Source of the DNA: Luteimonas salinisoli | GTDB taxonomy: Bacteria; Pseudomonadota; Gammaproteobacteria; Xanthomonadales; Xanthomonadaceae | Assembly: GCF_013425525.1 (NCBI RefSeq) | Contig: NZ_JACCKA010000092.1 | Span: 1 to 64,000 of the forward strand | Reading direction: 5' to 3' | Length of the DNA: 64,000 nucleotides | Part shown: positions 7,527 through 29,671 of the stretch, piece by piece | How the letters are laid out: each line of letters begins with the position of its first letter | How positions within the stretch are numbered: the stretch's first letter is position 1 | Translations under genes and position numbers: made by a program | The notes under the pieces: model-generated | What the model saw: only the letters and a program-made list of their open reading frames with translations | Told to the model about the DNA's origin: nothing | Database searches by the model: none

Positions 7527-8426
7527 CTAGCGCTCGCGCTCCCAGTCGAAGCCGGACAGCTGCGCCAGTTCCTCGGGGGTGAGCACGCCCACGTGGTGCA
7601 GGCCGTGCACCACCCAGGTCGGATACGAGCCCACGCCCGCCGCCGCGCATTCGCGCGCGACCGGCCCGCCGCGGCCCTGCGGACTGCATTCGACGTAGGG
7701 AAGCCGCGGCGCCGACGCGCCGAACAGGCGCGCCTGGCGCCGGCAGTTGCCGCACCAGGAGGCGCCGTAGTATTTCGCGTCGATCGCATCCAGGTGGGCC
7801 ACCAGCGCCGCCACCCGTGGATTCTCCGGTCGCCGGTCCAGCACGCCGCTGGCTGCGACGTGCAGGACGGCCACCACCCCCAATGCCAGCAGCCCCCCAC
7901 CCAGCCACCAGGCGCCGCGGCTGCGATCGGATGCGCCGGCCCTGCGGACATGGACCACGCCGAAGATCGCGGCCATCGTCGCCAACGAGGCCATGCACCA
8001 GCCGCAGATCGCCTGCAGCGACAGGATCCCGGCCGCGGTCAGGTACACGCTGATCGCCAGCCCCAGCAGCGAGAGCCGCGACAACCGCCGCCAGCGCCGC
8101 GCGGCCGAGCGCCCGGTGGCGGCGGCCAGGGCGAGCAGCGCGTACATCGCGAAGCCCCAGAGCGCGATCGGCAGCCCGAACAGCGTCGACCAGCGGCTCT
8201 GGGCGATCGCGTCGCAACCGCCCCCCTCGGCGCAAAAGGCCGGCGCCGCATCGCCCCAGGCGGCCACCATGAGATAACCGGTCAGGAACAGGCCGAGGGC
8301 CGCGAGCGCCAGCACCACGCGATCGGGCGGCAGCCGCGGCGCACGCGCCGCGGTCCTGGCTCCGGAGACCGGGGCGGTGGTCGCTGCAGGATGCTGGCGG
8401 GTCTGCTTGCGCTTCTTTCTGGCCAT
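7527..8426 (-). CDS. VKOR-thioredoxin fusion, disulfide-bond formation protein
   Basis: The 299-residue membrane protein joins a vitamin K epoxide reductase (VKOR) domain to a thioredoxin-like domain. The VKOR part has about five membrane segments. It carries the loop cysteine pair Cys65 and Cys71 and the active-site pair Cys141/Cys144 in AICGWCMAS. The C-terminal periplasmic domain carries Cys225/Cys228 in ASWCGNCRR. Bacterial proteins of this type oxidise cysteines of secreted proteins using quinone, replacing or supplementing DsbB. The N-terminus is Lys/Arg-rich (MARKKRKQTR), consistent with a cytoplasmic start. A TAGAAT box at 8454-8459 (minus strand) could be its -10. Confidence 0.85.
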   Translation of the reverse strand: MARKKRKQTRQHPAATTAPVSGARTAARAPRLPPDRVVLALAALGLFLTGYLMVAAWGDAAPAFCAEGGGCDAIAQSRWSTLFGLPIALWGFAMYALLALAAATGRSAARRWRRLSRLSLLGLAISVYLTAAGILSLQAICGWCMASLATMAAIFGVVHVRRAGASDRSRGAWWLGGGLLALGVVAVLHVAASGVLDRRPENPRVAALVAHLDAIDAKYYGASWCGNCRRQARLFGASAPRLPYVECSPQGRGGPVARECAAAGVGSYPTWVVHGLHHVGVLTPEELAQLSGFDWERER

Positions 8427-8526
8427 GGGTCCGTGTCGGAGTGACGGATCGCGATTCTAACGGCAGCCGCGCGGGCCGCTGCCTGTGTGCATGGAACGCT
8501 CTTGCGGAGCGGGTTCGGGCGACAAC

Positions 8527-16392: not shown

Positions 16393-16420
16393 CTACAGGA
16401 GCGGCCCATGGCCGCGAAAG
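16393..16420. repeat. Single REP half downstream of pilR
   Basis: CTACAGGAGCGG followed by a GCGGCC-CAT-GGCCGC hairpin and GAAAG matches a left REP half with a slightly altered head. No partner follows. Confidence 0.6.
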
Positions 16421-16509
16421 CGCGCGCGCCTCGACCCTACGCGATAGCTGAGCTGCCCCCTGATGCAACGCATCCCTCGGTCGCCTTGCTACGGCCCACC
16501 CGCTCCGAC

Positions 16510-16515
16510 GACAAT
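16510..16515 (+). promoter_or_regulatory. -10-like box close to the tfpZ start
   Basis: GACAAT is followed by eight bases and then the tfpZ ATG, again a leaderless arrangement. No convincing -35 is seen. Confidence 0.3.
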
Positions 16516-16523
16516 CCGGCGCC

Positions 16524-17276
16524 ATGACGCGCTGGAAAGCCTCATCCATCCACCTGGCACTCAGCGCCGTCGTCGCCAGCGCGGTGTTCGCCCTGTTCGT
16601 GCTGGTCTGGTACCCCCCGCCGCTGTTCGGCGCCACCGGCGGCACCCGGCTGCTGCGCACCATCCTGCTGGTCGACGTGGTGCTCGGGCCGCTGCTCACC
16701 TTGGTGGTCTACAAACCCGGCAAGCGAGGGCTGAAGTTCGACCTGGCGACCATCGCCACTTTGCAGGTATGTGCACTGGTCTACGGCCTGTTCGTCGCCT
16801 TCCAAGCGCGCCCTGCCTATATCGCAGTCCTGCCTTATCGCGCCACGCTGGTGCGCGCCGACGAACTGTATCCGCACGATCCGGCGCCTGCGGGCCGCTA
16901 TGCCAAGACACCGCTATGGGGCGCCGAGCCGGTCGGGGTGGACGACCCGTCGAGAGAAGCCAAGCGCGCCCTGCTCGATGATTTCCTGGCCGGCAAGCCA
17001 GACATCGACTATCGGCCCGGTTACTACGTCCCTCTCGACCAACGCATGGCGGCCATCGCCAGAGAAGCCGAGCCGCTGCAGCGGCGCATGGAGAGCGATG
17101 CCCCTGAACATCAGCGCTACGTAGCCTGGTTGCGCGAGAGAGGCCGGAACACGTCCGACGGACTTTACGTCCTGCCATTGATCACGCCCGTCGACGAGCT
17201 CGAAGTGGTGCTCGACGCCCGCGATGCCTCCGTCGTGGGCTTCCTGCCAGCCCCTCCACCGCCCGCTTCGAAGTAA
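16524..17276 (+). CDS. tfpZ: TfpX/TfpZ-type pilin accessory protein
   Basis: The 250-residue protein resembles the TfpX/TfpZ family encoded beside pilin genes in Pseudomonas and Xanthomonas, where members assist assembly of their cognate pilin. It has an N-terminal block of about three membrane segments (residues 9-32, 42-62 and 72-95) with the conserved YPPPLFGATGG and DVVLGPLLTLVVYKPGKRG. A hydrophilic periplasmic domain with YRPGYYVPLDQR follows. It lies directly upstream of the pilA control region. The family assignment rests on recognised motifs; the exact role here is inferred. Confidence 0.8.
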   Translation: MTRWKASSIHLALSAVVASAVFALFVLVWYPPPLFGATGGTRLLRTILLVDVVLGPLLTLVVYKPGKRGLKFDLATIATLQVCALVYGLFVAFQARPAYIAVLPYRATLVRADELYPHDPAPAGRYAKTPLWGAEPVGVDDPSREAKRALLDDFLAGKPDIDYRPGYYVPLDQRMAAIAREAEPLQRRMESDAPEHQRYVAWLRERGRNTSDGLYVLPLITPVDELEVVLDARDASVVGFLPAPPPPASK

Positions 17277-17351
17277 CGGCCTTCTTCGATTTAAACCTGA
17301 ACGGGCTCACACTTCACCCGCTGGGACGCCGTTTGGGCTTGGCCGCGACGC

Positions 17352-17385
17352 GTCACTTTCGACAGAAAAGTGACATTTTTTGTCA
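17352..17385 (+). promoter_or_regulatory. Candidate PilR binding sites upstream of pilA
   Basis: Two overlapping inverted repeats are visible: GTCACTTT-N7-AAAGTGAC (17352-17374) and TGACA-N5-TGTCA (17371-17385). They lie about 90-120 bp upstream of the sigma-54 promoter, where an enhancer-binding protein would act. TGTC/GACA boxes agree with the known PilR site core. Assignment to PilR is inferred. Confidence 0.55.
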
Positions 17386-17471
17386 TATCCTCAAGACTTG
17401 CAGAAACCGGCGCCCCGGCTTTTGTGATCCACCACGAAACCACTTGTTGACCGCCCCCGCAATGTCCGGAT

Positions 17472-17487
17472 TGGCACGTATTGTGCG
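17472..17487 (+). promoter_or_regulatory. Sigma-54 promoter of pilA (first copy)
   Basis: TGGCACG-N4-GTGCG has the GG and GC doublets at the spacing required for sigma-54. The -24 element is perfect and the -12 element has one change. The start point should be near 17498, giving a leader of about 90 nt before pilA. Confidence 0.75.
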
Positions 17488-17587
17488 TACCTACCGTCGC
17501 ACGTGCGGTGTCGCACGGCTGCCCAACGGACCCGGTTCAGCCGGCCCACGCGGCACGTGAAGCAAAATCCACTCCTAGGGGATACAC

Positions 17588-18016
17588 ATGAAGAAGATGC
17601 AGAAGGGCTTCACCCTGATCGAACTGATGATCGTCGTCGCGATCATCGCCATCCTGGCGGCCATCGCGCTGCCGGCCTACCAGGACTACCTGATCCGCTC
17701 GCAGGTCTCCGAGGGCTCGACGCTGGCTTCCGGCGCCAAGACCGCCGTGGCCGAGTTCTACAGCAACAGGGGCACGTTTCCGACTGCAAACGAGTCGGCT
17801 GGCCTCGCCAACGCCGCGTCCATCGTCGGCAAGTACGTTTCCAACGTCAACGCCGCGAATGGCACCATCGCAGCCACTTTCAGTGGTCCTGCTGCGAATG
17901 CCAAGATCTCCGGCGATATCCTGATCTTCTCGGCGATCACCAATGCCGGCAGCATCGAGTGGACCTGCACGAGCACCACGATCGACGACAAGTACCTGCC
18001 GACGTCCTGCCGCTGA
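17588..18016 (+). CDS. pilA: Type IV major pilin (copy 1)
   Basis: The 142-residue prepilin has a seven-residue leader cut after Gly7 ([17 protein letters not shown]), the Glu5 of the mature protein and the hydrophobic N-terminal helix ending in [16 protein letters not shown]. Two Cys near the C-terminus (WTC ... SCR) form the expected disulfide loop. The first 60 codons have the GC-rich host style, while the rest drifts to lower GC (57% and 55% in two 60-base lines counted, against 68% earlier). A sigma-54 promoter precedes it and a strong terminator follows, so it is expressed alone. Confidence 0.96.
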
Positions 18017-18045
18017 TACCCCACTCAATGTAGCAATGGCGTTTC

Positions 18046-18077
18046 GAGGGCCGCACTTGTGCGGCCCTCTTCTTTTT
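18046..18077 (+). terminator. Rho-independent terminator after pilA
   Basis: GAGGGCCGCAC and GTGCGGCCCTC form an 11-bp perfect stem around TT, followed by TTCTTTTT. It ends just nine bases before the next start codon. Confidence 0.92.
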
Positions 18078-18085
18078 GAACGGAC

Positions 18086-20116
18086 ATGCAGAACTTTCGA
18101 ACTTGGGCCCCCTGGCTTGGCTTGGTCGCCAGCGTCGCCCTTGCGGGTCTGGCCTATCGCCCAGGCCTTTCCGGCACATTCCACTTCGACGACTTCGCCA
18201 ACCTGCCAACGCTTGGCGCAATGGGCCGTATCGACAACTGGCCAACATTTTGGCGCTACGTTACATCGGGGCACGCCGATCCGACCGGCCGACCGATCTC
18301 GGTACTGAGCTTCTTGCTGGATGCTCGCGACTGGCCCGCAGAGCCCTATCCCTTTCTCCGTACCAACCTGCTGCTGCATCTCTGCAACGGCGTGCTGCTC
18401 GCCTTGCTCTTGACCCGTCTAGGCTGCCTTGTTTCTGGCTCAATGCAGGAGTCCAAACTCGGTGATGGCAAGGTGCGGGCACGAATGGCCGGAGTACTCG
18501 GTGCAAGTTTCTGGATGCTGCATCCGCTCTTCGTATCCACCACGCTCTATGTCGTTCAGCGCGAGGCGATGTTGCCGGCCACATTCGTTCTGATCGGACT
18601 CCTGGTCTGGCTGCGAGCGCGCCGTCTCTTCCAGACTGAGCGTGACAAAACGGGCCTAGCTCTCATGGCGCTCGGGCTTGGTGGCTGTACGGCATTGGCA
18701 ACCCTGAGCAAGGCCAATGGCGCACTGCTACCGGCTTTCGCCCTGGTGATCGAGGTGGTGGTGCTGAAGCGGTTGGATCCGATACGCCGGCCCGCGGTCT
18801 ATCGCCGCGCGATGTTCGCCTTCGCCTGGATTCCTACGATAGCTATCGCAGCCTACTTACTTGGCGCCGGTTGGAACGGGCTATTTCACGGCATCTCGGA
18901 CAGCCGCCCATGGACTCTGGGCCAACGGCTGCTGACCCAGCCGCGTGTCATCCTGGAGTACCTGAACTTGCTATGGATGCCCAGGCCATTCGGATCGGGC
19001 ATCTTCAATGATCATGTGCAGCCATCCAATTCCCTTTTTTCTCCGATCAGCACGGCGCTTTCGTTGGCAACCCTGCTCGCGCTGAGCGCGGGAAGCTGGA
19101 CCTTTCGCCGTAGGTATCCATTGGCCGCATTGGCAATCTTCTTCTATTTCGTCGGCCAACTCATCGAGTCGAGCACGATAGCGCTCGAACTCCAGTTTGA
19201 GCACCGCAATTATCTGCCTTCCATGCTCATGTTCTGGCCGCTTGCCGCGTGGCTGTGTGGCTTCCGCCTATCCGCCGGCGACTCCGGTGCCAACACCTTC
19301 TCACTGATGCGACCGTTGTTGGCGATCGCCCTGGTAGTTGGGCTGGCCAGCATGACGCATATGCGTGCGAGCCTCTGGGGAGACACGCGAACACAGGCCA
19401 TCCTTTGGGCCGAGCTCAATCCCGACTCGGCGCGTGCCCAGGCGTATGCGGCCAGCGTCGAAGTCGAGAACGGTCGGCCCGACCAAGCCAGGCATCGGCT
19501 GCGACGTGCGCTGAACAACAACCCAGACGACATCCAGCTTGCCTTGGGTCTCTTCTCAGCAGAATGCACCATCGGCAATGTAGCATCCGACACACTCACA
19601 GATGCCGCTACTGCATTTGCCAGGACACGCGAAGTAGGCGGGCTACTTACCAGTTGGTTCGCGCAAGCAATCACGCGAGCCGAGAAGCGTCCATGTCCAG
19701 AGCTCAACCTGGAAGTGCTTGAGGGTCTCATAGAAGCGGCGCAAGCCAATCGATTCCTGCAGTCACGACCCGCTCGCAGGCAGGACCTCCTGCACCTCCA
19801 CGGAAGAATCGCCCTTGCGCGCGCTCGCCCGAACGTCGCCCTAGCCAGCTTCAATCAAGCCTTGGAGGAGCAAGTAAGGCCTGGCTTCGCACTCGAGCAG
19901 GCAGCGTTGCTCGGAGCCGCAGGATATCCGGCGCTCGGATTGGCCCACCTTGATCACTACGATGCCATGGAGCCAGAGAAGTTCACTCCGGGCTTCGGGA
20001 TGCCCCGCATACACATGTGGGTGCTGGACATGCAAGGCTATTGGAAGAGGGAGATGATTCACCTGCGCGAAGTTCTAATGAAGGACTCAACGCCTGTCCG
20101 CGTGGGGGCGCATTGA
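18086..20116 (+). CDS. Large GT-C-like membrane protein with C-terminal TPRs (copy 1)
   Basis: The 676-residue protein has about ten membrane segments and then a soluble C-terminal part with TPR-like helices. An early lumenal FHFDDFANL motif (near residue 33) and a late ELQFEHRNYLPS motif resemble the acidic-loop and HRxY features of GT-C glycosyltransferases such as the TMTC family. RPISVLSFLLD and NLLLHLCNGVLLALLL fit the same pattern. It lies between two pilin genes, so lipid-linked sugar transfer to pilin is a reasonable but unproven role. GC is lower than in the flanks. Its stop overlaps the next start by one base. Confidence 0.72.
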   Translation: MQNFRTWAPWLGLVASVALAGLAYRPGLSGTFHFDDFANLPTLGAMGRIDNWPTFWRYVTSGHADPTGRPISVLSFLLDARDWPAEPYPFLRTNLLLHLCNGVLLALLLTRLGCLVSGSMQESKLGDGKVRARMAGVLGASFWMLHPLFVSTTLYVVQREAMLPATFVLIGLLVWLRARRLFQTERDKTGLALMALGLGGCTALATLSKANGALLPAFALVIEVVVLKRLDPIRRPAVYRRAMFAFAWIPTIAIAAYLLGAGWNGLFHGISDSRPWTLGQRLLTQPRVILEYLNLLWMPRPFGSGIFNDHVQPSNSLFSPISTALSLATLLALSAGSWTFRRRYPLAALAIFFYFVGQLIESSTIALELQFEHRNYLPSMLMFWPLAAWLCGFRLSAGDSGANTFSLMRPLLAIALVVGLASMTHMRASLWGDTRTQAILWAELNPDSARAQAYAASVEVENGRPDQARHRLRRALNNNPDDIQLALGLFSAECTIGNVASDTLTDAATAFARTREVGGLLTSWFAQAITRAEKRPCPELNLEVLEGLIEAAQANRFLQSRPARRQDLLHLHGRIALARARPNVALASFNQALEEQVRPGFALEQAALLGAAGYPALGLAHLDHYDAMEPEKFTPGFGMPRIHMWVLDMQGYWKREMIHLREVLMKDSTPVRVGAH

Positions 20117-22047
20117 TGCTGCGCGGTGATCCGAAGGCTCATGGCAGTTCGGCGCTACCATCTGCCCGAACATGGATGCTCGTCGGTCTGCTGCTGACGA
20201 TCGCCGCGTACTGGTCCGGCCTCTCAGGCGCGTTCCTGTTCGATGACTACCCTAATATTGTCAACAATCAAGCTTTGCATTTGAAAGACTTGGATGTGCC
20301 GGGATTGTCCCGGGCGGCCCTTTCCTCACCATCAAGCGAATTGAAACGACCGCTTGCGTCGCTCAGCTTCGCCTTCAATCACCTGGCGACTGGTTTGGAT
20401 CCCTTCTGGATGAAGGCGACCAATCTGATCATCCACCTCCTCAATGGTCTGCTTGTTTACGGCCTGGCAAAGCGGCTGTTGCGTCTGGCCGACGGCGGCG
20501 ATACGCCCCGCCTCGGAGGAGTCGCGGCAGCGATCGCTTCGGGGTGGCTACTACTGCCAATCAATCTGAGCGCCGTGCTCTATGTGGTGCAGCGAATGGA
20601 GGGTTTGGCGAACCTGTTCGTACTCTTTGGTCTCTGGTTGTACGTCAAGAGCCGGCAGCGAATGCAAAGCAGGGGAACCGGGGTATGGTTGTGCATAGCA
20701 AGTCTTGCCATTCCTACGGCACTGGGGGTCCTGGCGAAGGAGTCGGCCGTCATGCTTCCGCTCTATGCATTCTGCGTGGAATGGCTGTTGTTCGGATTCC
20801 TGACCAGTCGTGCCGACAGGCGCGATGTCAGGATCCTCGCCACGTTCGCATTGCTCCTTGCCGTGCCACTCGTGGCCGGCCTGCTGTGGCTGCTGCCGAG
20901 CGTACTGAACCCGGAAAACTGGGCCGCGCGGGACTTTACCTTGGGCACTCGCCTACTGAGCGAAACGAGGATCGTGACTGGGTACATTCCATGGACGTTG
21001 TTTCCCACCCCCAGCTCGCTGTCGTTCTATCATGATCAGGTAGAGGTATCAGCGGGGTTGTTCTCTCCTTGGACGACTTTCGCCAGCATCATCTTTCTGG
21101 TCGCCTTGGCCGTGATTGTCTGGACGATGCGGAAGCGCGCGCCGCTGGTTTCGCTGGGACTGACGTTCTTCCTGGGAGGACACCTTCTTACGGGCACTAT
21201 CCTTCCGCTGGACTTGGTCTACGAGCACCGCAATTACTTCGCCAGCTTCGGCCTGCTGCTCACGATCGTGCCTTTCCTCGCCGTCGACAGTGCCCGTTCA
21301 TTCGCCCGGTTCCGGTGGATGCTGCTTGGCCTGCTTCTCGCTGGTTGGTTCAGCCTGACGACCTTCACCGCATATGCTTGGGGCGACCCGCTGCGGCTAG
21401 CTCGGGATCTGGCAACTCGCAATCCGAATTCTCCACGCGCCCAGTACGAACTCGGGTTCACGTACGTTGTCTACTCGCACTATTTGCCCAGTTCCCCGTT
21501 CGTTTCGCTCGCATACGAACAGTTGGAGTTGGCAGCCAGCCTTCCTCGCTCGCCCATCCTCGCTGAGCAGGCACTTATTATGATGAGCGCGCGGATGGGA
21601 TCTCCGCAGAATGAGGAATGGTGGAACAACTTAATAATCAAGATGGCAAGGAGGAAGGCATCTGCGGACGACATCAGTGCCCTGGCAGCGCTCGCCACCT
21701 GCCAGGCCAATGGCGATTGCGATTATCAGGGGCGTACCCTGGTGCCGGCGTTCTTGGCCGGACTTGCGCATGCCAATCCCGAACCACGGCTGATGGCGAC
21801 GTATGCAGAGTATGCATGGAACGTACTAAGGGATCCTGATCTGGCATTGCGGATGGCGAGGGAAGCGGCCCGAGCCAGTCCAACCGAACCAGCCTATCAA
21901 GTCACGTTGGTGCGCATCCTAACCGCGCTCGGGAATAAGGAGGAGGCGGAGCGCGCTCTAGGCGGGCTCCGGGCCCTCAATCATGGAGGGCAACTGGACG
22001 ACGAAATCGAGAAGCTGACCCGTGTTCTGGCAGAACCGGCACACTGA
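20116..22047 (+). CDS. Large GT-C-like membrane protein with C-terminal TPRs (copy 2)
   Basis: The 643-residue protein is a paralogue of the preceding one. It shows FLFDDYPNIVNN near the N-terminus, ELKRPLASLSFAFN, NLIIHLLNGLLVYGLAKRLL, SAVLYVVQRMEGLANLFVLF and DLVYEHRNYF, then TPR-like helices (SPRAQYELGFTYV). The start was set at the ATG that overlaps the upstream stop (TGATG), preceded by GGGGG. The two paralogues could modify the two pilins separately or act in series. Transferase activity is inferred from the GT-C pattern only. Confidence 0.72.
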   Translation: MLRGDPKAHGSSALPSARTWMLVGLLLTIAAYWSGLSGAFLFDDYPNIVNNQALHLKDLDVPGLSRAALSSPSSELKRPLASLSFAFNHLATGLDPFWMKATNLIIHLLNGLLVYGLAKRLLRLADGGDTPRLGGVAAAIASGWLLLPINLSAVLYVVQRMEGLANLFVLFGLWLYVKSRQRMQSRGTGVWLCIASLAIPTALGVLAKESAVMLPLYAFCVEWLLFGFLTSRADRRDVRILATFALLLAVPLVAGLLWLLPSVLNPENWAARDFTLGTRLLSETRIVTGYIPWTLFPTPSSLSFYHDQVEVSAGLFSPWTTFASIIFLVALAVIVWTMRKRAPLVSLGLTFFLGGHLLTGTILPLDLVYEHRNYFASFGLLLTIVPFLAVDSARSFARFRWMLLGLLLAGWFSLTTFTAYAWGDPLRLARDLATRNPNSPRAQYELGFTYVVYSHYLPSSPFVSLAYEQLELAASLPRSPILAEQALIMMSARMGSPQNEEWWNNLIIKMARRKASADDISALAALATCQANGDCDYQGRTLVPAFLAGLAHANPEPRLMATYAEYAWNVLRDPDLALRMAREAARASPTEPAYQVTLVRILTALGNKEEAERALGGLRALNHGGQLDDEIEKLTRVLAEPAH

Positions 22048-22089
22048 CCAGTGTTAGCGTGACGCAGCGCATACTTTGCTCGTATTTTC

Positions 22090-22105
22090 TGGCTAGCTTC
22101 TTGCT
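22090..22105 (+). promoter_or_regulatory. Sigma-54 promoter of the second pilin gene
   Basis: TGGCTAG-N4-TTGCT has correct GG/GC spacing and a good -12 element. It lies 73 bp upstream of the second pilin ATG. No clear PilR palindrome like that of copy 1 is seen upstream, although TGAC/GTGT boxes occur at the end of the preceding gene. Confidence 0.72.
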
Positions 22106-22177
22106 TCTGCTTTCCTATGAGTACCACAGGCAACCCGGAACCGGCCCTGGGTCGCAAAGTCATTTCAGGGGGAAGCG

Positions 22178-22606
22178 ATGAAAAGAGAACGAGGGTTCAC
22201 GCTCATTGAATTGATGATCGTCGTAGCGATCATCGCCATTCTGGCCGCGCTGGCATTGCCCGCCTACCAGGACTACCTGATTCGGGCCCAGGTGAGCGAG
22301 GGGGTCTCTCTTGCCACGGGAGCGAGGACGGCCGTCTGGGAGTATGCGGCCAACCATGGCCGCTTGCCGGCAAGCAATTCAAGCGCCGGTCTGCCAGCCA
22401 AGGGAACCATTGTTGGCAATTACGTCAGCGAGGTCGAGGTCGCCGCGGGCGGTATCCAGATAACTTTCGGCCGTGATGCCAATACAGATATCGCCGGCGC
22501 GACGCTGATCCTGCTGCCAACGCTCGCCTCAACTTCTGGCACCGTCGACTGGACCTGCGTTGGCGGAACGGTAGACAAAAAGTATCGGCCCACGATCTGC
22601 CGTTGA
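22178..22606 (+). CDS. pilA: Type IV pilin (copy 2)
   Basis: The 142-residue prepilin has a six-residue leader ([16 protein letters not shown]). The N-terminal helix is almost the same as in copy 1, while the globular domain diverges. The two Cys positions in WTC and ICR are kept. A strong AGGGGGAAG Shine-Dalgarno precedes the ATG. It has its own sigma-54 promoter, so it should belong to the PilR regulon. No clear terminator was found after it. Confidence 0.94.
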   Translation: MKRERGFTLIELMIVVAIIAILAALALPAYQDYLIRAQVSEGVSLATGARTAVWEYAANHGRLPASNSSAGLPAKGTIVGNYVSEVEVAAGGIQITFGRDANTDIAGATLILLPTLASTSGTVDWTCVGGTVDKKYRPTICR

Positions 22607-22675
22607 TTCCTCAACAGCCGGCCTTGAGCCAACTCCAGTGCCCGCGGCCTTTAAGTTCGACGCGGGTAGTCTGAA

Positions 22676-23182
22676 CTACCTTGCGGTTGCCCGCGCGGGA
22701 ACGCCGACATAGACCTCGTCCGCCGCCAAGCTACCGCGGACGAGCGCCCCTGCTCCGACCACGACTCGGTCTTCGACTATCGATCCCGATAGAATCGTTG
22801 CGCAAGCCCCGATCCAGCAGCCGTCACCAATTACCACGCCGCGGGCCTCGGGTTCCCAGCGCTCGCACAACGGCGAACCATGCGCCAACCCGGGATCGGA
22901 ATGGCTCAACACAGTAACCCTTGGGGAAAGCGCACTTCCATTGCCGATAGCAACAGGGCCCTCGAGATCGATGAGGCATCCAGCCCCGATATGGACGTCG
23001 TCTCCGACGCGTAAATTCGAGAACCCGTTTCGAAGATTGATGAAACGACATTCGTAGATACGTACGTTGCGCCCAATCCTTGCACCCAGCATTGCCAGGC
23101 ACCGTGCGCGGAGTCTAGGGTGGATCAGGATCCGCGCAAGCAACTCCGCCACCATGTAAAGCCCAGCTCTAAGATCAGACAC
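22676..23182 (-). CDS. Hexapeptide-repeat acyltransferase
   Basis: The 168-residue protein is a left-handed beta-helix acyltransferase of the WbbJ/LacA type. It has repeated hexapeptide turns (VGDDVHIGAGCLIDLEGPV, IGDGCWIGACATILSGSIV, VGAGALVRGSL) and the closing YVGVPARATAR. Such enzymes O-acetylate sugars of surface glycans. The GTG start overlaps the upstream stop by 8 bp and follows GGAGGAG. It is the last gene of a minus-strand glycan set. The acceptor is unknown. Confidence 0.8.
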   Translation of the reverse strand: MSDLRAGLYMVAELLARILIHPRLRARCLAMLGARIGRNVRIYECRFINLRNGFSNLRVGDDVHIGAGCLIDLEGPVAIGNGSALSPRVTVLSHSDPGLAHGSPLCERWEPEARGVVIGDGCWIGACATILSGSIVEDRVVVGAGALVRGSLAADEVYVGVPARATAR

Positions 23183-24146
23183 CCTTCTCTCCTCCGAAGA
23201 AGTCGCGTCTCATCAGCCAGATCCCAAGCATTGCAGCAATAGCGTCCATCATCAGCAGGACTGCGCGAGATACCAAAGCCAATGCCCCCATATCTGCATG
23301 CGTCATCCCAACGGCGGGAGCCAGTAAGACCATTGCGCCCTCGCGCACCCCCAACCCGCCTGGGAGCATGCTCAAAGCGCCGGCCACATACGAGAGCGAC
23401 ATCGCTGCAACAATAGCCAATGAATCTCTCGCGTCGAGCCCCGTTATGCTCACCACAAGAAGCCACCACCCAGCACAGTACAGGAGGATGTAAATCGCAA
23501 GCCTCGCGTACGTATCACGCGTCAACTCGCCCCCGGGCCCTCGCCCCACAGATTCGGCTTCACGCCTCAGGAAGGCGAACTTGGCTATGCGGGGTAAACA
23601 CCTCCTTGCCAAGCGCGCTAGCTGCGCCAAGCTGTCCATGCTCAGTATCAGAGCACATCCGGCGAATGTAGCCAGTAAGGCAACTGCTGCGGCCATGAGG
23701 CCGCTGATCCACCCGACAAGGCAGGTGAGTGCTACACCAAGCACCACCATCAAGACCAGGATCGCGAGCTCGATATTCGCCCCGACCACGGCAGCGGTGG
23801 ATCCGGGCGCGCGCAACATGCTGACTTGCATCGCGACGCCCCAGATTCGACCTGGCACGTACTTGGCAACCTGAGACACCAGGAATATCCCCAAAGCGGA
23901 TGAGGACCGAGCACCCCCAGATGAAGATCGACTGACCAGCGCGGCAAATACGTGGCCGATCTGGACGTTACCGAACGAAAGCAGGAGCACCGACGAGACG
24001 GCTATGTGCCACCTAGCACCGGTGAGCATACCTACAATTACCGTCCAACTTTCGTGTACCAGCCAGGCAAAGATGATGACGACAGCCGATAGAATCGTAC
24101 AACCCAGCGCCCGCCTAGCCTTCATCGCCGTTTCCAGTAGAGTCAC
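23175..24146 (-). CDS. Lysylphosphatidylglycerol synthase TM-region (UPF0104-like) protein
   Basis: The 323-residue protein has about eight membrane segments and the family signatures YVPGRIWG and MLPGGLGVREG. Members of this family (flippase-like domain, AglD/MprF membrane part) are often encoded beside glycosyltransferases and are thought to act on lipid carriers. The GTG start follows a GAGGT ribosome site; an ATG seven codons in is the alternative. The function here is unknown; the glycan context suggests lipid-linked sugar handling. Confidence 0.75.
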   Translation of the reverse strand: MTLLETAMKARRALGCTILSAVVIIFAWLVHESWTVIVGMLTGARWHIAVSSVLLLSFGNVQIGHVFAALVSRSSSGGARSSSALGIFLVSQVAKYVPGRIWGVAMQVSMLRAPGSTAAVVGANIELAILVLMVVLGVALTCLVGWISGLMAAAVALLATFAGCALILSMDSLAQLARLARRCLPRIAKFAFLRREAESVGRGPGGELTRDTYARLAIYILLYCAGWWLLVVSITGLDARDSLAIVAAMSLSYVAGALSMLPGGLGVREGAMVLLAPAVGMTHADMGALALVSRAVLLMMDAIAAMLGIWLMRRDFFGGEKGV

Positions 24147-24218
24147 AGGCGAAACCTCTCGATCGCCTGCAACTCATGATCCGCGAGTGCGGAGCACACC
24201 AAAGAGTGCGCGAGATCG

Positions 24219-24965
24219 TCACGATTGCTTCTTCAGCAGGAATACGAAGGAGGGCATCAATGGGAGAAGTAGATCGTGCACGACGCCCGGCAGCCGGCCA
24301 AAGGTCCTCATGACCCGTGGTTGCAATCCTTTGCCTTCAATGGATAGAGCTCTTTGTGGGATTGCGTTGCGCACGCTAAATCCACTTTGTCTGAACCATG
24401 ATACGAGCCGCCAAGAGGTGGTCGAATAGGCATCCAACTCAGATGCGCATCTCGAGCCCAGCACTGTCATGGTTCTATGTGCAGTGCTTCGCGGCAGCCA
24501 ATGTACGAACGGCCAGAACACGTGGGGTTCGATCGGCCACAGCAGGTTGGGGCCGGCGAAATAGCACACCCCACCCGGCACCAGAACACGATTGATATTT
24601 CTGATCAGCGCGAATGGATCGCGCACGTGTTCGTAGACTTGATTGCAGACGACCACGTCGATTGACGCACCCGGCAACGGAGGCTCCGGACCATCGAACT
24701 CGCCCACCATAAGCCTCAGATTGGAGTGTTCGGCCATTGCCCCGCGCCAAGCATCCCAGGGCTCTGGATCTATCCCGGTAACATGTCGCGCGATGCCAGC
24801 AAGTGTGGTTGCGATAGCGCCACTTCCGCAGCCAACGTCCAACCACGCGCCTTTGGAGACGCCGGGACCGAAGTTCCGCTCCATCGTGCGCCAGATCGCC
24901 AACGCCTTCCTATCTCGACCGACGTTGCTCCAGCGAGGTGTACGAGCGATATCGAGATCATGCAT
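24219..24965 (-). CDS. Class I SAM-dependent methyltransferase
   Basis: The 248-residue protein has the SAM-binding motif WLDVGCGSGAIATTLA, an acidic end of strand 2 (VTGIDPEPW) and the post-motif VVVCNQVYEHVRDP. RVLVPGGVCYFAGPN follows, the pattern of UbiE/SmtA-like enzymes in glycan clusters. The ATG was chosen because GAGGAG lies at the right distance; a TTG nine codons upstream would overlap the previous gene. The substrate is unknown. Confidence 0.8.
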   Translation of the reverse strand: MHDLDIARTPRWSNVGRDRKALAIWRTMERNFGPGVSKGAWLDVGCGSGAIATTLAGIARHVTGIDPEPWDAWRGAMAEHSNLRLMVGEFDGPEPPLPGASIDVVVCNQVYEHVRDPFALIRNINRVLVPGGVCYFAGPNLLWPIEPHVFWPFVHWLPRSTAHRTMTVLGSRCASELDAYSTTSWRLVSWFRQSGFSVRNAIPQRALSIEGKGLQPRVMRTFGRLPGVVHDLLLPLMPSFVFLLKKQS

Positions 24966-24978
24966 CTGCGACCGCTCC

Positions 24979-26112
24979 TCACATGCAGGCAAGTCGGCGG
25001 GCGACGACCTGAAGATCGAACGTCTTCAAGTGCGCCGCCATTCCCGGAGCAAACTCTTGCGCTGACCCTGCGACCGCTTGCGAGATAGCATCGGCGAATC
25101 CCTCTGCCGACGCCGACGCGGAAAGGACGCCACAAGGCGGATCGTCGAGCAGCCTCGGCAAATCGCCTACGGGCATAGCTATCACGGGGCAGCCCAGCTT
25201 AACTGCATCAGAGAAAACCACTGGAATACTCTCCACGCGGGATGGAATCAATAGCCAGTCCGCCCTCAAGAACGCCTCTTCCGCTGCCACCCGATCCAGA
25301 AAGCCCCGCAACACGACCGGCTTCCCAGCTGCACGCAGTTCTTCAACGCCTGATCGCACTATCGACTCAAGTGGCCCACCACCACAGATTTCCACGGCCT
25401 CGATGCGTTTCCAGTCGCTTTCATCCAGCATTTTCAGCGCATCTAGAAGCAGGTCAACGCCCTTGTTCTTGTGCCAACGACCCAGGAACAGCAGCCGGTA
25501 CGGCGGTGCGGACTTCAGGGGCACGGATCGCTTGCTGCTAATACGGCGTGTGCTGGGCAGGAACTCGACTGGTCGTCCAGAAATTGCACGGGTGTCCTCA
25601 GCGAGCTTCAATCCATCTGACCAGCAACGCTCTGCATCTCGCAATACTCGCGCCAGACGCGCCCTGACAAGCGGAATTCGGCCTAATGTCCAGATATCGC
25701 TGCCCAATGTCCATACGGAATAGCTTGCGCCACACTTATCAGCGGCATATCGCGCCCAGTCGCCACAGGGCAACGCCCACAATGCAAGGATATGCCGAAC
25801 GGGGCCATGCGCGATTGCCGCCTCAGTCGCTGCACGACCAGCCAGCATGACCTGCAGAATCCTCCATGCATCCATGGGATTCCACGGTCTTAGTGTCGAT
25901 AGCGGTTGGTCTGGGCACGCGTAGCGAAACACCTCAACACCTGGACACCAGGCTTCATGGCCTGACGCACCACCAGGGGCGACGACACGAACGGGGAGCT
26001 CCTTGCTAAGCTCCTCTACGAGGTCCGCCGCGAATGACCCAGCGGCCTCGCTACCGTCTGCCTTGATTGGAAACGAGGACGTGATGGCAACCAGCGCTGG
26101 CTCAGTATTCAC
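24979..26112 (-). CDS. Glycosyltransferase family 4 protein
   Basis: The 377-residue protein has a GT-B fold of the GT1/GT4 type. The C-terminal half shows YRLLFLGRWHKNKGVDLLLDA, a donor-binding ICGGGPLESIV, and LIPSRVESIPVVFSDAVKLGCPVIA with the ExxPxxxxE-like block. The GTG start overlaps the upstream methyltransferase stop (GTGA); an ATG at 26157 is the alternative. The role is transfer of a sugar in glycan assembly; donor and acceptor are unknown. Confidence 0.82.
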   Translation of the reverse strand: MNTEPALVAITSSFPIKADGSEAAGSFAADLVEELSKELPVRVVAPGGASGHEAWCPGVEVFRYACPDQPLSTLRPWNPMDAWRILQVMLAGRAATEAAIAHGPVRHILALWALPCGDWARYAADKCGASYSVWTLGSDIWTLGRIPLVRARLARVLRDAERCWSDGLKLAEDTRAISGRPVEFLPSTRRISSKRSVPLKSAPPYRLLFLGRWHKNKGVDLLLDALKMLDESDWKRIEAVEICGGGPLESIVRSGVEELRAAGKPVVLRGFLDRVAAEEAFLRADWLLIPSRVESIPVVFSDAVKLGCPVIAMPVGDLPRLLDDPPCGVLSASASAEGFADAISQAVAGSAQEFAPGMAAHLKTFDLQVVARRLACM

Positions 26113-26837
26113 GGACGAATTGCCTTCAGGCGGTACCCTGCTGTCAACGCTGTCCATGCGGGTAGTGCGCGACCCAGGAGCCAACTCGCTGCGTTCACTA
26201 GCGGAACTAGTGCAGCCACGAATGGGAACAGCACTAATGACGGTCGTTTGTCCTCAATTGCCTTGCTCATCATCCCGGCAAGCGCGAGATTGAAGAGTAA
26301 ACCGGCAGATTCGGCACTACCCAAGTTCTCTACAAGATCATCTACCAAGAACCCAGCCTCCGCCATCTCGCGCAGCAGGCCATGACAGGTATAGCGCTGG
26401 TAGTCGTGCGGCGCGTCGTGGACCGGATACAAGAAAGGCAGAGTGAGGAACAACTGCCCCCTTGGCTTCAGCACGCGCGCGATCTCCGCCAACGCTCCAG
26501 AAGGGTCACGAAGGTGCTCGAGCACCTCCAGCAGCAGCACCGTGTCGAAGCTGGCATCGGGAAATGGCAGGCTGGCAGCGTCCGCAAACACATCTGGACG
26601 AGCGCCGTACAGTCGGCCGCCCGTCGCAGGATAGTCGACACCTACGTATTCGCACTCTCTTGACAAGTGTCGTTCCATCCAGCGGTCTGCGCAACCGATA
26701 TCCAGGACGAGACCGCGCGCATCTCGCTGCACCCAGTTCGCCGTTTTCTTGAAATCACCGAGCAGCCATTGCGGGTGAAACGGCGTTCTTCTGAGTCGCT
26801 CCATACAGCTCCGTATACGTGAGGCAGTCACACTCAT
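26109..26837 (-). CDS. Class I SAM-dependent methyltransferase
   Basis: The 242-residue protein has motif I as GLVLDIGCADRWMERHL, an unusual but recognisable GxGxxG variant. VGVDYPAT, FDTVLLLEVLEHLRDPSGA and ARVLKPRGQLFLTLPF follow. The C-terminal third is hydrophobic and may sit at the membrane. It overlaps the GT2 gene (ATGA) and the downstream GT4 gene (GTGA), so the three are translated as a unit. Confidence 0.8.
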   Translation of the reverse strand: MSVTASRIRSCMERLRRTPFHPQWLLGDFKKTANWVQRDARGLVLDIGCADRWMERHLSRECEYVGVDYPATGGRLYGARPDVFADAASLPFPDASFDTVLLLEVLEHLRDPSGALAEIARVLKPRGQLFLTLPFLYPVHDAPHDYQRYTCHGLLREMAEAGFLVDDLVENLGSAESAGLLFNLALAGMMSKAIEDKRPSLVLFPFVAALVPLVNAASWLLGRALPAWTALTAGYRLKAIRP

Positions 26838-27685
26838 ACGTCACGCCGATACGTCAGTGCCGTGATCTGCTCGGAAACTAAACCGATCAAGAAAATGATG
26901 ACGGCTGCACTGAACAGCAAGGTGCTCATGTTCGTAAATCGACCTTGGGTCGCAAACGTATAGACGTAATATCCAAGCCCAACAAGGAAGAACAGTACTG
27001 CCGTCGGAGCAAACAGCTTGAGGGGTGAGTACAGCGTTGCGATTTTGAAGATTATTAGCAGGAAACGGATGCCATCACGAATTGGCTTGATGTGGCTCTT
27101 TCCCAGGCGTTTCGCGACCGGCACGGGCTCGTAAGCCACGGAATAGGCACTACGAAAAAATGCCATAGTGCTGGTGGTCGGATAGCTGAAGCCATTGGGT
27201 AGAAGGTGCAGGAACTCGCGGAACTTCTGCGCCTTTGCCACGCGCAAGCCTGAGGTCAGATCCTTTACGTTGAATCCCGTCATGCGGCTCGCCAGCCAAT
27301 TGTAGAAGGCGTTCGCGACCCCCCGGCTTAATCCCGCCTGCCCCGACCAGTCCCGGGCGCCGACCACCATGTCGTAGCCCTCCTCCAGCCGCGTCAGCAG
27401 GCGCGGGATGCTGGCCGCGTCGTGCTGGCCGTCGGCGTCCATGAACACCAGCACGTCGCCCCCGGCCACCCTGGCGCCACGCTTGATGGCCGCGCCATTG
27501 CCCATGGAATAAGGGGAAGACAGCACCTTGGCGCCGAGTTCCACGGCGATCCGGGCGGTCGCGTCGGTCGAACCGTCGTCGACCACAATGATCTCGGCGT
27601 CCGGCAGCAGCGCCCGCAGCCCCGGGAGGGTGCGGCGCAGCCCTTCGGCCTCGTTCTTGGCAGGCAGGATCACGGATATCTGCAT
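26834..27685 (-). CDS. Glycosyltransferase family 2 (DPM1/DPG-synthase-like)
   Basis: The 283-residue protein has a GT-A fold: ISVILPAKNEAEGL, IIVVDDGSTDATA, the DXD motif MDADGQHD, and a segment after DLTSGLRVAKAQKF. Two C-terminal membrane helices follow, as in enzymes that load a sugar onto a polyprenyl phosphate. The ATG follows AGGGGAG. Composition changes inside the gene: a 60-base line in the 5' half is 72% GC and one in the 3' half is 47%. This looks like a recombination joint near 27300. It is the first gene of the minus-strand glycan operon and is divergent from pilB. Confidence 0.85.
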   Translation of the reverse strand: MQISVILPAKNEAEGLRRTLPGLRALLPDAEIIVVDDGSTDATARIAVELGAKVLSSPYSMGNGAAIKRGARVAGGDVLVFMDADGQHDAASIPRLLTRLEEGYDMVVGARDWSGQAGLSRGVANAFYNWLASRMTGFNVKDLTSGLRVAKAQKFREFLHLLPNGFSYPTTSTMAFFRSAYSVAYEPVPVAKRLGKSHIKPIRDGIRFLLIIFKIATLYSPLKLFAPTAVLFFLVGLGYYVYTFATQGRFTNMSTLLFSAAVIIFLIGLVSEQITALTYRRDV

Positions 27686-27949
27686 ATGGGCTCCCCTTCG
27701 CGACAGGGTAGCCGGAAGCCCCCGCGCCGTGGAAGCCGGGCTGTCCAGATGCGACGTCAGGCACGGTTCCTGCATGGCCTTGACCATGCAAGAATCGGAC
27801 ACGCTGCAGGCTGCCTCGTCCACCACATCGGCGCCCCTGCCTACGCAGCCCGGTTGGACGGGGGCCGGGGGACCAGGCACTGGCCTGTTCAAGGTCGACC
27901 GCACGTTGTTACGGTAAAGTCCCGAAATGCTAGGGGGAGATGGCTTCCA
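27686..27949. promoter_or_regulatory. Divergent GT2-pilB control region
   Basis: No gene is seen in these 264 bp. A perfect inverted repeat TGCATGG-N6-CCATGCA lies at 27771-27790, about midway, and could be an operator for both directions. A GGGGGAG ribosome site for pilB is at 27932. No sigma-54 motif with correct spacing was found. Confidence 0.35.
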
Positions 27950-29671
27950 ATGAGCGCAGTACCGACCGCCAACCTGATCGGCATCACCGGCATCGCCCGG
28001 CGCCTGGTGCTGGACGGCGCCCTGGACGACACCGCCGCCCGCGAGGCCCTGGACAAGGCCACCGCCCAGCGCAAGCCGATCGCCGGCTGGCTGCGCGAGC
28101 ACAAGCTGGTCACCGGCGCCCAGCTGGCCGCGGCCAACTCCATCGAGTTCGGCATGCCGGTGTTCGACCCGGCCACCATGGACGCCAGCCTGGCGGCGGT
28201 GAAGCTGGTCAAGGAGGAGCTGCTGCGCAAACACTGCGTGCTGCCGCTGTTCAGGCGCGGCGGCAAGCTGTTCGTGGGCACCGCCGACCCCACCAACACC
28301 CACGCCCTCGACGAGGTGAAGTTCCACACCAACCTGGTGGTGGAACCGATCCTGGTGGACGAGGACGCGCTCAAGCGCACCCTGGAGATCTGGCTGGAGG
28401 TCAGCGACAGCTTCGGCGATGCCCTGGAGGACGCCGACGGGCTGGAGGGGCTGGACGTCGGCAGCGACGAGATCGCCGCCGAGAGCGCTTCCGACGTCAA
28501 GGGCGACGACACCCCGGTGGTGAAGTTCGTCAACAAGGTGCTGATCGAGGCCATCAAGAAGGGCGCCTCGGACATCCACTTCGAGCCCTACGAAACCGAC
28601 TACCGGGTGCGGCTGCGCATCGACGGCATCCTGAAGCAGTCGGCCAAGATGCCGGTCAAGCTCAACCAGCGCATCACCGCGCGCCTGAAGGTGATGGCGC
28701 AGCTGGACATCGCAGAGAAGCGGGTGCCGCAGGACGGCCGCATCAAGCTCAACCTGTCCAAGACCAAGCAGATCGACTTCCGCGTCAGCACCCTGCCCAC
28801 CCTGTTCGGCGAGAAGGTGGTACTGCGTATCCTGGACGCCAGCGCCGCCAAGCTGGGCATCGACAAGCTCGGCTACGAGGAGCACCAGAAGGCCCTGTTC
28901 GTCGAAGCGATCCAGAAGCCCTACGGCATGGTGCTGGTCACCGGCCCCACCGGCTCGGGCAAGACGGTGTCGCTGTACACCGCGCTCAACATCCTCAACG
29001 ACGACCAGCGCAACATCTCTACGGTCGAGGACCCGGTGGAAATCCGCGTGCCGGGCATCAACCAGGTGCAGATGAACGTGAAGCGCGGCATGACCTTCGC
29101 CGCCGCGCTGCGCAGCTTCCTGCGCCAGGATCCCGACGTGATCATGGTCGGCGAGATCCGCGACCTGGAGACTGCCGAGATTGCCATCAAGGCGGCGCAG
29201 ACCGGCCACATGGTGCTCTCGACCCTGCACACCAACGACGCCCCGCAGACCATCGCCCGCCTGATGAACATGGGCATCGCGCCGTACAACATCACCAGTT
29301 CGGTGACCCTGGTGATCGCGCAGCGCCTGGCGCGGCGGCTGTGCGACCGCTGCAAGAAGGTGGTGGAGCTGCCGGACGCGGCGCTGCTGGCGGAAGGGTT
29401 CACCGCCGACGAGGTGCATGCCGGCATCAAGCTGTACGAGGCGGTGGGCTGCGACGAGTGCACCAACGGCTACAAGGGCCGCTCCGGCATCTACCAGGTG
29501 ATGCCGATGAGCGAGGAGATCCAGGAGATCGTGCTGCGGGGCGGCAACGCCATGCAGATCGCCGAGGTGGCGGAAAAGGCGGGGATCAACGACCTGCGCA
29601 AGTCGGCGCTGCAGAAGGCCCGGCAGGGGGTGACCAGCCTGGCCGAGATCAATCGCGTCACCAAGGACTGA
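27950..29671 (+). CDS. pilB: Type IV pilus assembly ATPase PilB
   Basis: PilB is the cytoplasmic hexameric ATPase that powers pilus extension. The 573-residue protein has an N-terminal T2SSE domain and Walker A GPTGSGKTVSLYTALN at about residues 332-347. The Asp box and Walker B DPDVIMVGEIRDLETAEIA and the His box STLHTNDA follow. Two CxxC pairs (CDRCKK and CDECTNG) form the zinc knuckle typical of PilB. The start was set at the ATG before SAVPTANLIGIT. pilC follows after 318 bp that hold a REP pair. Confidence 0.97.
   Translation: MSAVPTANLIGITGIARRLVLDGALDDTAAREALDKATAQRKPIAGWLREHKLVTGAQLAAANSIEFGMPVFDPATMDASLAAVKLVKEELLRKHCVLPLFRRGGKLFVGTADPTNTHALDEVKFHTNLVVEPILVDEDALKRTLEIWLEVSDSFGDALEDADGLEGLDVGSDEIAAESASDVKGDDTPVVKFVNKVLIEAIKKGASDIHFEPYETDYRVRLRIDGILKQSAKMPVKLNQRITARLKVMAQLDIAEKRVPQDGRIKLNLSKTKQIDFRVSTLPTLFGEKVVLRILDASAAKLGIDKLGYEEHQKALFVEAIQKPYGMVLVTGPTGSGKTVSLYTALNILNDDQRNISTVEDPVEIRVPGINQVQMNVKRGMTFAAALRSFLRQDPDVIMVGEIRDLETAEIAIKAAQTGHMVLSTLHTNDAPQTIARLMNMGIAPYNITSSVTLVIAQRLARRLCDRCKKVVELPDAALLAEGFTADEVHAGIKLYEAVGCDECTNGYKGRSGIYQVMPMSEEIQEIVLRGGNAMQIAEVAEKAGINDLRKSALQKARQGVTSLAEINRVTKD

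Follow-up and report, generated by a model that had tools for sequence, protein, structure and literature searches.

What do two large membrane proteins do when their genes lie between two pilin genes? We took up this question for a stretch of 64,000 nucleotides from Luteimonas salinisoli (contig NZ_JACCKA010000092.1, positions 1 to 64,000; hereafter, the window), in which two paralogous genes encode proteins that we call GTC1 and GTC2 (34% identity over 451 amino acids, E 2e-52). As a first-pass annotation of the sequence had described, genes for two type IVa pilins, PilA1 and PilA2, flank the pair, and coordinates, gene order and Pfam Pilin matches, both above the 22-bit cut-off of that model, agree on this arrangement (Table 1). 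We consider it likely that GTC1 and GTC2 are glycosyltransferases of the GT-C type that glycosylate pilin, with a glycan of whatever size, from a lipid-linked donor begun by a glycosyltransferase of family 2 (GT2) encoded at the same locus.

Fold and conserved residues of GTC1 and GTC2

AlphaFold2 models of GTC2 and GTC1, built from alignments of 62 and 42 sequences, had mean predicted local distance difference test scores of 94.3 and 90.9, respectively. GT-C enzymes were the top matches of both models in VIA-align, over about 310–350 residues: GTC2 matched yeast STT3 (8agb; Z 18.9, 317 residues, 4.7 Å), chain B of Pmt1-Pmt2 (6p25; 17.0), ALG12 (9s6t; 17.0) and ArnT (5f15; 16.0), and GTC1 matched 8agb (Z 16.8, 331 residues, 5.6 Å), Pmt4 (9i5l; 15.0) and ArnT (5f15; 14.5). 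Tetratricopeptide repeat (TPR) chains matched the C-terminal 120–220 residues. The models thus show, in both proteins, a predicted GT-C glycosyltransferase core followed by a C-terminal TPR superhelix, as the first-pass annotation had supposed from the sequence; the superhelix starts near residue 425 and extends to the C terminus, despite TPR models that score below the Pfam cut-offs in both window proteins. The outcome that the annotation had named as refuting its idea, structure predictions without a GT-C core, did not occur. TPR_19 was detected in 38 of the 62 aligned sequences at E 0.1. Foldseek alone returned TPR proteins first, and the GT-C chains among the matches listed had E values of 4e-3 to 3e-2; dominance of the TPR part made this search of little help, and it was VIA-align that resolved the GT-C part. 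All PDB sequence matches listed (60 of 202) likewise fell on the C-terminal TPR part of the profile. Pfam matches over the 62 sequences included PIG-U in two and PMT in one, both weak, and NCBIfam gave nothing informative; neither these two databases nor PHROGs named either protein as a glycosyltransferase, leaving the membrane part without a curated family.

The 62 aligned sequences, which comprise the two window proteins and 60 relatives, share a set of invariant residues that includes D43, D44, R78, V158, Q159, R160, K208, R272, R279, Y290, E370, R372, Y374, S439 and R441 (GTC2 numbering). The early aspartate pair (D35-D36 in GTC1, D43-D44 in GTC2) and the late motif (FEHRNY and YEHRNY) that had first drawn attention to these paralogs are both present, and EHRNY is intact in 61 of the 62 sequences. 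Going by the first helix of the model (residues 17–37) and by analogy, D43 and D44 would lie in the first periplasmic loop.

The pattern had been likened to that of TMTC enzymes, and the likeness holds in part. TMTC1–4 are animal O-mannosyltransferases that also combine a GT-C membrane domain with TPRs; their motifs, as given in the available text of PMC7801869, are DD, SHKSYRP, RxD, KE(T/Q)xxT, DW, PxxP and ERxxY (here M1–M7), and the same text notes uncharacterised full-length TMTC homologues in prokaryotes. With M2–M7 assigned by eye, the aligned proteins keep DD (M1), RP (M2), R (M3), the K (62/62) and E (52/62) of M4, a near-invariant D307 near M5 (60/62) and the E and Y of M7. In contrast, PxxP (M6) was not seen, and the arginine of M7 lies one place later (ExRxY versus ERxxY). 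Neither window protein matched TMTC_DUF1736 (PF08409) at E values up to 1, and the domain was not among the families listed (25 of 32) for the 62 sequences; a search of the phylum gave 0 of 299 genomes, a result that proves little because no control genome gave a signal either. We therefore describe GTC1 and GTC2, pilin-linked bacterial proteins with no DUF1736 match, a displaced arginine and no visible PxxP, as TMTC-like in build and probably in mechanism, and reject membership of TMTC proper.

A probable GT2 partner and a variable block of putative glycan genes

The nearest NCBIfam model to the window GT2 is AglJ (110 bits; cut-off 325), and its nearest PDB relatives are ArnC (1.2e-15), Dol-P-Man synthase (5.6e-14) and sll0501 (3.2e-9), the last of which we take to be of the GtrB type. 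Judged by these similarities, the protein belongs to the polyprenyl-phosphate sugar synthases. Across 298 genomes of the order to which L. salinisoli belongs, 169 carried both the GT-C/TPR family (E ≤ 1e-40) and this GT2 (E ≤ 1e-60), 10 only the former, one only the latter (an assembly in 290 contigs) and 118 neither (Fisher p 7e-70, a value that ignores descent). Genomes with both and genomes with neither stand side by side within nine of the 13 tabulated genera, and the pair has therefore probably been gained or lost together repeatedly. A phylum sample of 398 genomes gave 19 with both, four of them from the order, 5 with GT-C only, 4 with GT2 only and 370 with neither. The pilin, GT-C and GT2 genes are contiguous, in that order, in four genomes (G467, G574, G654 and G408) and two Variovorax, with GT2 proteins 57–66% identical to that of the window, and a GT-C gene is followed by the GT2 gene likewise in G440, G300 and G298; in G188 both are present about 0.7 Mb apart.

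Between the GT-C and GT2 genes lies a block whose content varies. We surveyed 19 loci, chosen for having both genes on the fetched stretch, and 92 mechanically chosen open reading frames (ORFs) within them: 31 carried domains of glycosyltransferase family 4 (GT4), 19 were methyltransferases, and there were 10 flippase-type Polysacc_synt, 6 GT2, 4 PF03706 and 3 asparagine synthase matches. The order in one locus (L009) is pilin, GT-C, Wzx-like, GT2, methyltransferase, GT4, GT4 and the conserved GT2, and in contiguous operons of other lineages (L149, L150 and L060) a GT4-type gene comes after the GT2. Flippase genes vary, and no constant one was found across the 19 loci. In L153, a 58% relative of the window GT4 and a 28% BLAST relative of the window UPF0104 protein, itself without a Pfam match at E 1e-5, occupy equivalent places. 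By domain content, the make-up of the block is that of a locus for building and flipping a lipid-linked oligosaccharide that differs between species. The same L153 carries an Asp/Glu racemase-like gene (7618–8505), and the three asparagine synthase matches take in asparagine synthase/glutamine amidotransferase domains, which hints at amino-acid or amide decoration of the glycan.

The first-pass annotation had suggested that the GT2, GT4, methyltransferase and acetyltransferase genes beside the pilins could build a lipid-linked sugar. All are there, with two methyltransferases, downstream on the minus strand and with GT2 at the far end beside pilB; the suggestion gains from the co-occurrence and contiguity described above for GT2, and from the kinds of gene found in the block for the others. 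We propose that GT2, acting in the cytoplasm, would attach the first sugar to polyprenyl phosphate, that GT4 and the modifying enzymes (in the window, the two methyltransferases and the acetyltransferase) would probably extend or decorate the glycan at most loci, and that a flippase-type protein, for which the UPF0104/LPG_synthase_TM protein is a candidate, would turn the lipid-linked glycan to the periplasm. At the periplasmic leaflet, before pilus assembly, GTC1 or GTC2 would use its DD motif to place the glycan on a Ser or Thr of membrane-held PilA1 or PilA2, an assignment of enzymes to pilins that is provisional, and the TPR superhelix on the periplasmic side may offer a docking surface. 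Transfer of a short oligosaccharide to pilin makes up the larger part of what we propose, and we hold its chances to be about even. More tentatively, at somewhat less than even chances, these proteins would form a bacterial class of TMTC-like GT-C/TPR pilin oligosaccharyltransferases that transfer short oligosaccharides en bloc from polyprenyl monophosphate, starting from an AglJ/ArnC-like GT2.

The alternative that survives best is a narrower case of the same module, in which a single sugar is transferred: following the logic of Gtr and PMT systems, GT2 would make a polyprenyl-phosphate-hexose, the GT-C enzymes would add that hexose, and the GT4, methyltransferase and acetyltransferase genes would serve another surface glycan or act after transfer. 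GT2 is the sole block member conserved throughout (63–80% identity among the matches listed, in the order) while the others vary, and its nearest solved relatives are named as lipid-phosphate-monosaccharide enzymes. This has to be set against the variable block that separates GT-C from GT2 in 19 loci, with its many GT4 and flippase genes, against the six minus-strand genes of the window, which overlap or nearly touch from GT2 on, and against the GT4-type gene that follows GT2 in the three contiguous operons of other lineages. We regard transfer of a single sugar as possible but rather unlikely.

The proposed module also includes a control on enzyme level. A perfect 10-bp hairpin with a T run separates the PilA1 and GTC1 genes, and of 84 junctions between a pilin and a GT-C gene, 64 have a similar hairpin 3' of the pilin, where 1.2 would be expected in base-shuffled stretches. 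A scan of positions 16400–28200 found terminator-like matches not in excess (5, versus 8.0 expected in shuffles), so the case for an attenuator rests on the single strong hairpin and the junctions of relatives. From this pattern it is likely that the hairpin attenuates expression downstream of PilA1, and such a terminator would hold the enzymes below the level of the pilin.

Linkage to pilin genes and competing explanations

A scan of named genomes yielded 60 loci, or 59 after one duplicate was dropped, and a pilin gene within 6 kb on the same strand was found in 56 of them, mostly directly upstream in gene maps; the other three are contigs of 4.2–4.9 kb. The family occurs in 179 of the 298 genomes sampled from the order, with named members that include Dyella, Rhodanobacter, Luteibacter and Lysobacter, and in 24 of the 398 genomes of the phylum sample, both at E ≤ 1e-40. 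With the window genome excluded, a pilin adjoins 19 of the 22 phylum-sample genes with usable upstream sequence, and 16 of 19 outside the order. As a control we used weak relatives (profile score 50–134) from 17 other genomes of the order, 21 distinct frames in all, several of which carry a canonical ERxxY-type motif; only three of them adjoin a pilin. The linkage inside and outside the order supports the dedication of these GT-C/TPR genes to pilins. In the window genome itself, a protein search found GTC1 and GTC2 only, and a profile search counted a third, much weaker match. Phage or plasmid cargo was considered and rejected: neither protein matched a PHROG, and GTC2 matched no plasmid.

The three control proteins beside pilins (L185, L195 and L196) are divergent GT-C/TPR proteins that start with VWDD and come from genomes in which the main family has no strong match (G216, G102 and G287); they may represent a second pilin-linked type, although another protein with this start (L200) has no pilin in its flank. 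Three GT-C/TPR frames stand in a row after one pilin in Lysobacter dokdonensis (L054, 5115–10896), and three GT-C frames occur among the pilins of G208 (L135, 6988–13904); both triplets are expansions of the GT-C pair.

Pilin linkage bears directly on a second alternative, namely that the acceptor of the GT-C/TPR proteins is some other surface polymer (lipopolysaccharide or exopolysaccharide) and that their genes sit at the pilus locus by chance or through shared regulation. Loci of the O-antigen-modification type typically carry GT4, methyltransferase and flippase genes, which counts in favour of this explanation. So does the modification of O antigens of several bacteria by GT-C enzymes with GtrB-like partners, described in the available text of PMC11127046. 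Yet across many genera and in other lineages the gene beside them is usually that of a pilin, even where the rest of the pil locus changes (L144, L146 and L134), and we consider another polymer improbable as the target. More improbable still is a TfpY-like role, in which proteins descended from GT-C enzymes would help pilins to assemble or keep them stable without any catalysis: the putative residues of catalysis and phosphate binding do not vary across the 62 aligned sequences, a gene for a donor-synthase-like enzyme co-occurs, and a TfpZ-type protein is already present at the locus.

Several observations nevertheless weigh against pilin glycosylation by GTC1, GTC2 and their relatives. Among the results listed, our search of the open-licence PubMed Central literature brought up no biochemical or mass-spectrometric data on any family member. 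Three of the 22 phylum-sample genes (L096, L115 and L118) have no adjoining pilin, and the numbers of pilin and GT-C genes are not one to one across species; a pairing of one pilin with one enzyme is unsupported, as gene numbers differ between species. Among 143 linked pilins no Ser/Thr column is common to all except T2 of the N-terminal helix, a residue selected by the search pattern itself, and the acceptor site is therefore not visible. In distance matrices of 84 pairs, pilin head distance had a partial correlation of 0.29 with the membrane domain and of 0.19 with the TPR part, a value that none of 500 permutations reached; both parts co-vary with the pilin, the membrane part more so, which leaves a role of the TPR as special pilin reader unsupported.

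The 10 GT-C-positive genomes of the order that have no GT2 point the same way. Three of them (G037, G115 and G140) are assemblies of 290–460 contigs, and in G211 the gene is split over two contig ends. The other six (G153, G212 and G271, of one genus, with G208, G222 and G210) are better assemblies in which GT-C genes lie beside pilins, and we therefore suggest that the donor may be made there by different enzymes. A scan of five loci from these six genomes found other GT2 genes nearby in four (L134, L135, L137 and L138), with methyltransferase or EamA genes too in two of the four, and no other GT2, methyltransferase or EamA gene near L136.

Some contrasts between linked pilins and a set of 33 unlinked ones concern possible acceptor positions. 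Ser63 in mature numbering, presumably the glycosylation site of the gonococcal pilin, is present in both window pilins, and Ser or Thr occupies position 63 in 51% of linked versus 12% of unlinked pilins and position 115 in 70% versus 27%; the Ser/Thr content of the pilin head is 0.242 versus 0.201. We place little weight on these contrasts because the unlinked pilins are few and include a mixture of paralogs, and because descent confounds the comparison.

Locus layout, related systems and implications

The stop codon of the GTC1 gene and the start codon of the GTC2 gene overlap in TGATG, and GTC2 is probably translationally coupled to GTC1. From the GTC1 gene to GT2 runs an island with a G+C content of 0.59–0.60, versus 0.69 for the window, and the adjacency of pilB and GT2 is kept in relatives. 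The acetyltransferase could possibly serve O- or N-acetylation of the glycan. Upstream of PilA1, the locus has a gene of the assembly-helper type alongside the proposed glycosylation genes, and its TfpX/TfpZ-type product is probably part of the locus and outside the glycosylation step. Elsewhere in the window, recurrent intergenic repeats were noticed by eye at about 10234, 14720, 29715 and 32240; when read as protein they yield AAMGRSYG-like peptides in several ORF translations.

Table 1. Features of the proposed pilin glycosylation locus, with positions counted from the first nucleotide of the window.
Feature	Position	Strand	Evidence
TfpX/TfpZ-type pilin accessory protein, 250 amino acids	16524..17276	+	NCBIfam NF041437 E 5.2e-56, 190 bits (cut-off 200)
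Type IVa pilin PilA1, proposed acceptor	17588..18016	+	Pfam Pilin 99 bits, N_methyl 42 bits
Intrinsic terminator-like hairpin, 10 pairs, 8 GC, then TTCTTTTT	18046..18069	+	z -2.83
GT-C/TPR protein 1 (GTC1), 676 amino acids, proposed pilin glycosyltransferase	18086..20116	+	Model, motifs
GT-C/TPR protein 2 (GTC2), 643 amino acids, proposed pilin glycosyltransferase	20116..22047	+	Model, DNA
Type IVa pilin PilA2, proposed acceptor	22178..22606	+	Pfam Pilin 91 bits
Hexapeptide acetyltransferase	22676..23182	-	Pfam Hexapep 48.5 bits; nearest NCBIfam model WcaF-type, below cut-off
UPF0104/LPG_synthase_TM membrane protein	23175..24146	-	Pfam PF03706 55 bits (cut-off 33)
S-adenosylmethionine (SAM) methyltransferase 1	24219..24992	-	Pfam Methyltransf_23/11
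GT4 glycosyltransferase	24979..26184	-	Pfam Glyco_trans_1_4 69.5 bits
SAM methyltransferase 2	26109..26837	-	Pfam Methyltransf_11; overlaps GT2 stop
GT2 with C-terminal membrane helices (by reading), proposed donor maker	26834..27685	-	NCBIfam, PDB relatives, co-occurrence
pilB assembly ATPase	27950..29671	+	Identified by reading the sequence; divergent from GT2; ends block

Among pilin-modifying systems, TfpW, the D-Araf pilin arabinosyltransferase of Pseudomonas aeruginosa group IV, is by analogy the nearest in kind: a GT-C gene with a pilin and a proposed polyprenyl-phosphate-linked donor (available text of PMC11841053 and PMC11127046). The first-pass annotation had set both TfpO and TfpW apart as unrelated enzymes, which does not wholly hold for TfpW, also described as a GT-C enzyme in a title cited in the available part of PMC11841053. 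In a comparison made by description only, the two differ in that the arabinofuranose donor of TfpW comes from a phosphoribose pathway, whereas the window has a GT2 of the ArnC/DPMS/GtrB kind. Wzy_C (PF04932) was not detected in either window protein at E values up to 1, nor was it among the families listed (25 of 32) for the alignment, and on these grounds we reject their identity as oligosaccharyltransferases (OTases) of the Wzy_C type. The window proteins thereby differ from the O-OTases TfpO/PilO, TfpM, PglS and PglL, which we take to be Wzy_C proteins. These O-OTases share with the module the modification of pilins, and the genes for TfpO, TfpM and PglS also adjoin that of their substrate, according to the available text of PMC12645811. 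One Wzy_C protein was found in the L. salinisoli genome, on contig C62 (L205, 1219–2637; 473 amino acids, no other Pfam domain at E 1e-5), and is perhaps an O-antigen ligase.

Three-component systems (GtrA/GtrB/Gtr and those with GT136 enzymes) likewise join a lipid-phosphate-sugar synthase and a flippase to a GT-C transferase, as outlined in the available part of PMC11127046. Judging from sequence similarity, the locus shares with them a polyprenyl-phosphate-sugar synthase as partner; it differs in its presumed acceptor, pilin instead of an O polysaccharide, and no flippase gene was found to be constant across the surveyed loci. In the archaeal AglJ/AglB pathway, the glycan is assembled on a lipid monophosphate, from which a GT-C OTase transfers it. 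The window GT2 is nearest to AglJ, below the NCBIfam cut-off, and AglB was among the fold matches; AglB, however, is an N-OTase with other C-terminal domains.

Our search of the open-licence PubMed Central literature found, among the results listed, no description of this GT-C/TPR family at pilin loci, and the O-OTase table of a 2025 review, in the available part of its text, does not contain this enzyme class (PMC12645811); the enzyme type looks undescribed for pili. On the more tentative reading of en bloc transfer, the O-glycosylation of pilins would follow an archaeal-style donor logic, and the pilus locus of Lysobacterales and beyond would hold a species-variable glycan block. If our proposal is correct, many type IV pili would carry glycans made by a class outside that table, which would matter for twitching and for resistance to pilus-specific phages. 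Glycoengineering may also profit from a GT-C enzyme that comes with its own compact operon and has a pilin as natural acceptor, and the combination of GT-C and TPRs known from the TMTCs of animals would gain a tractable bacterial substrate.

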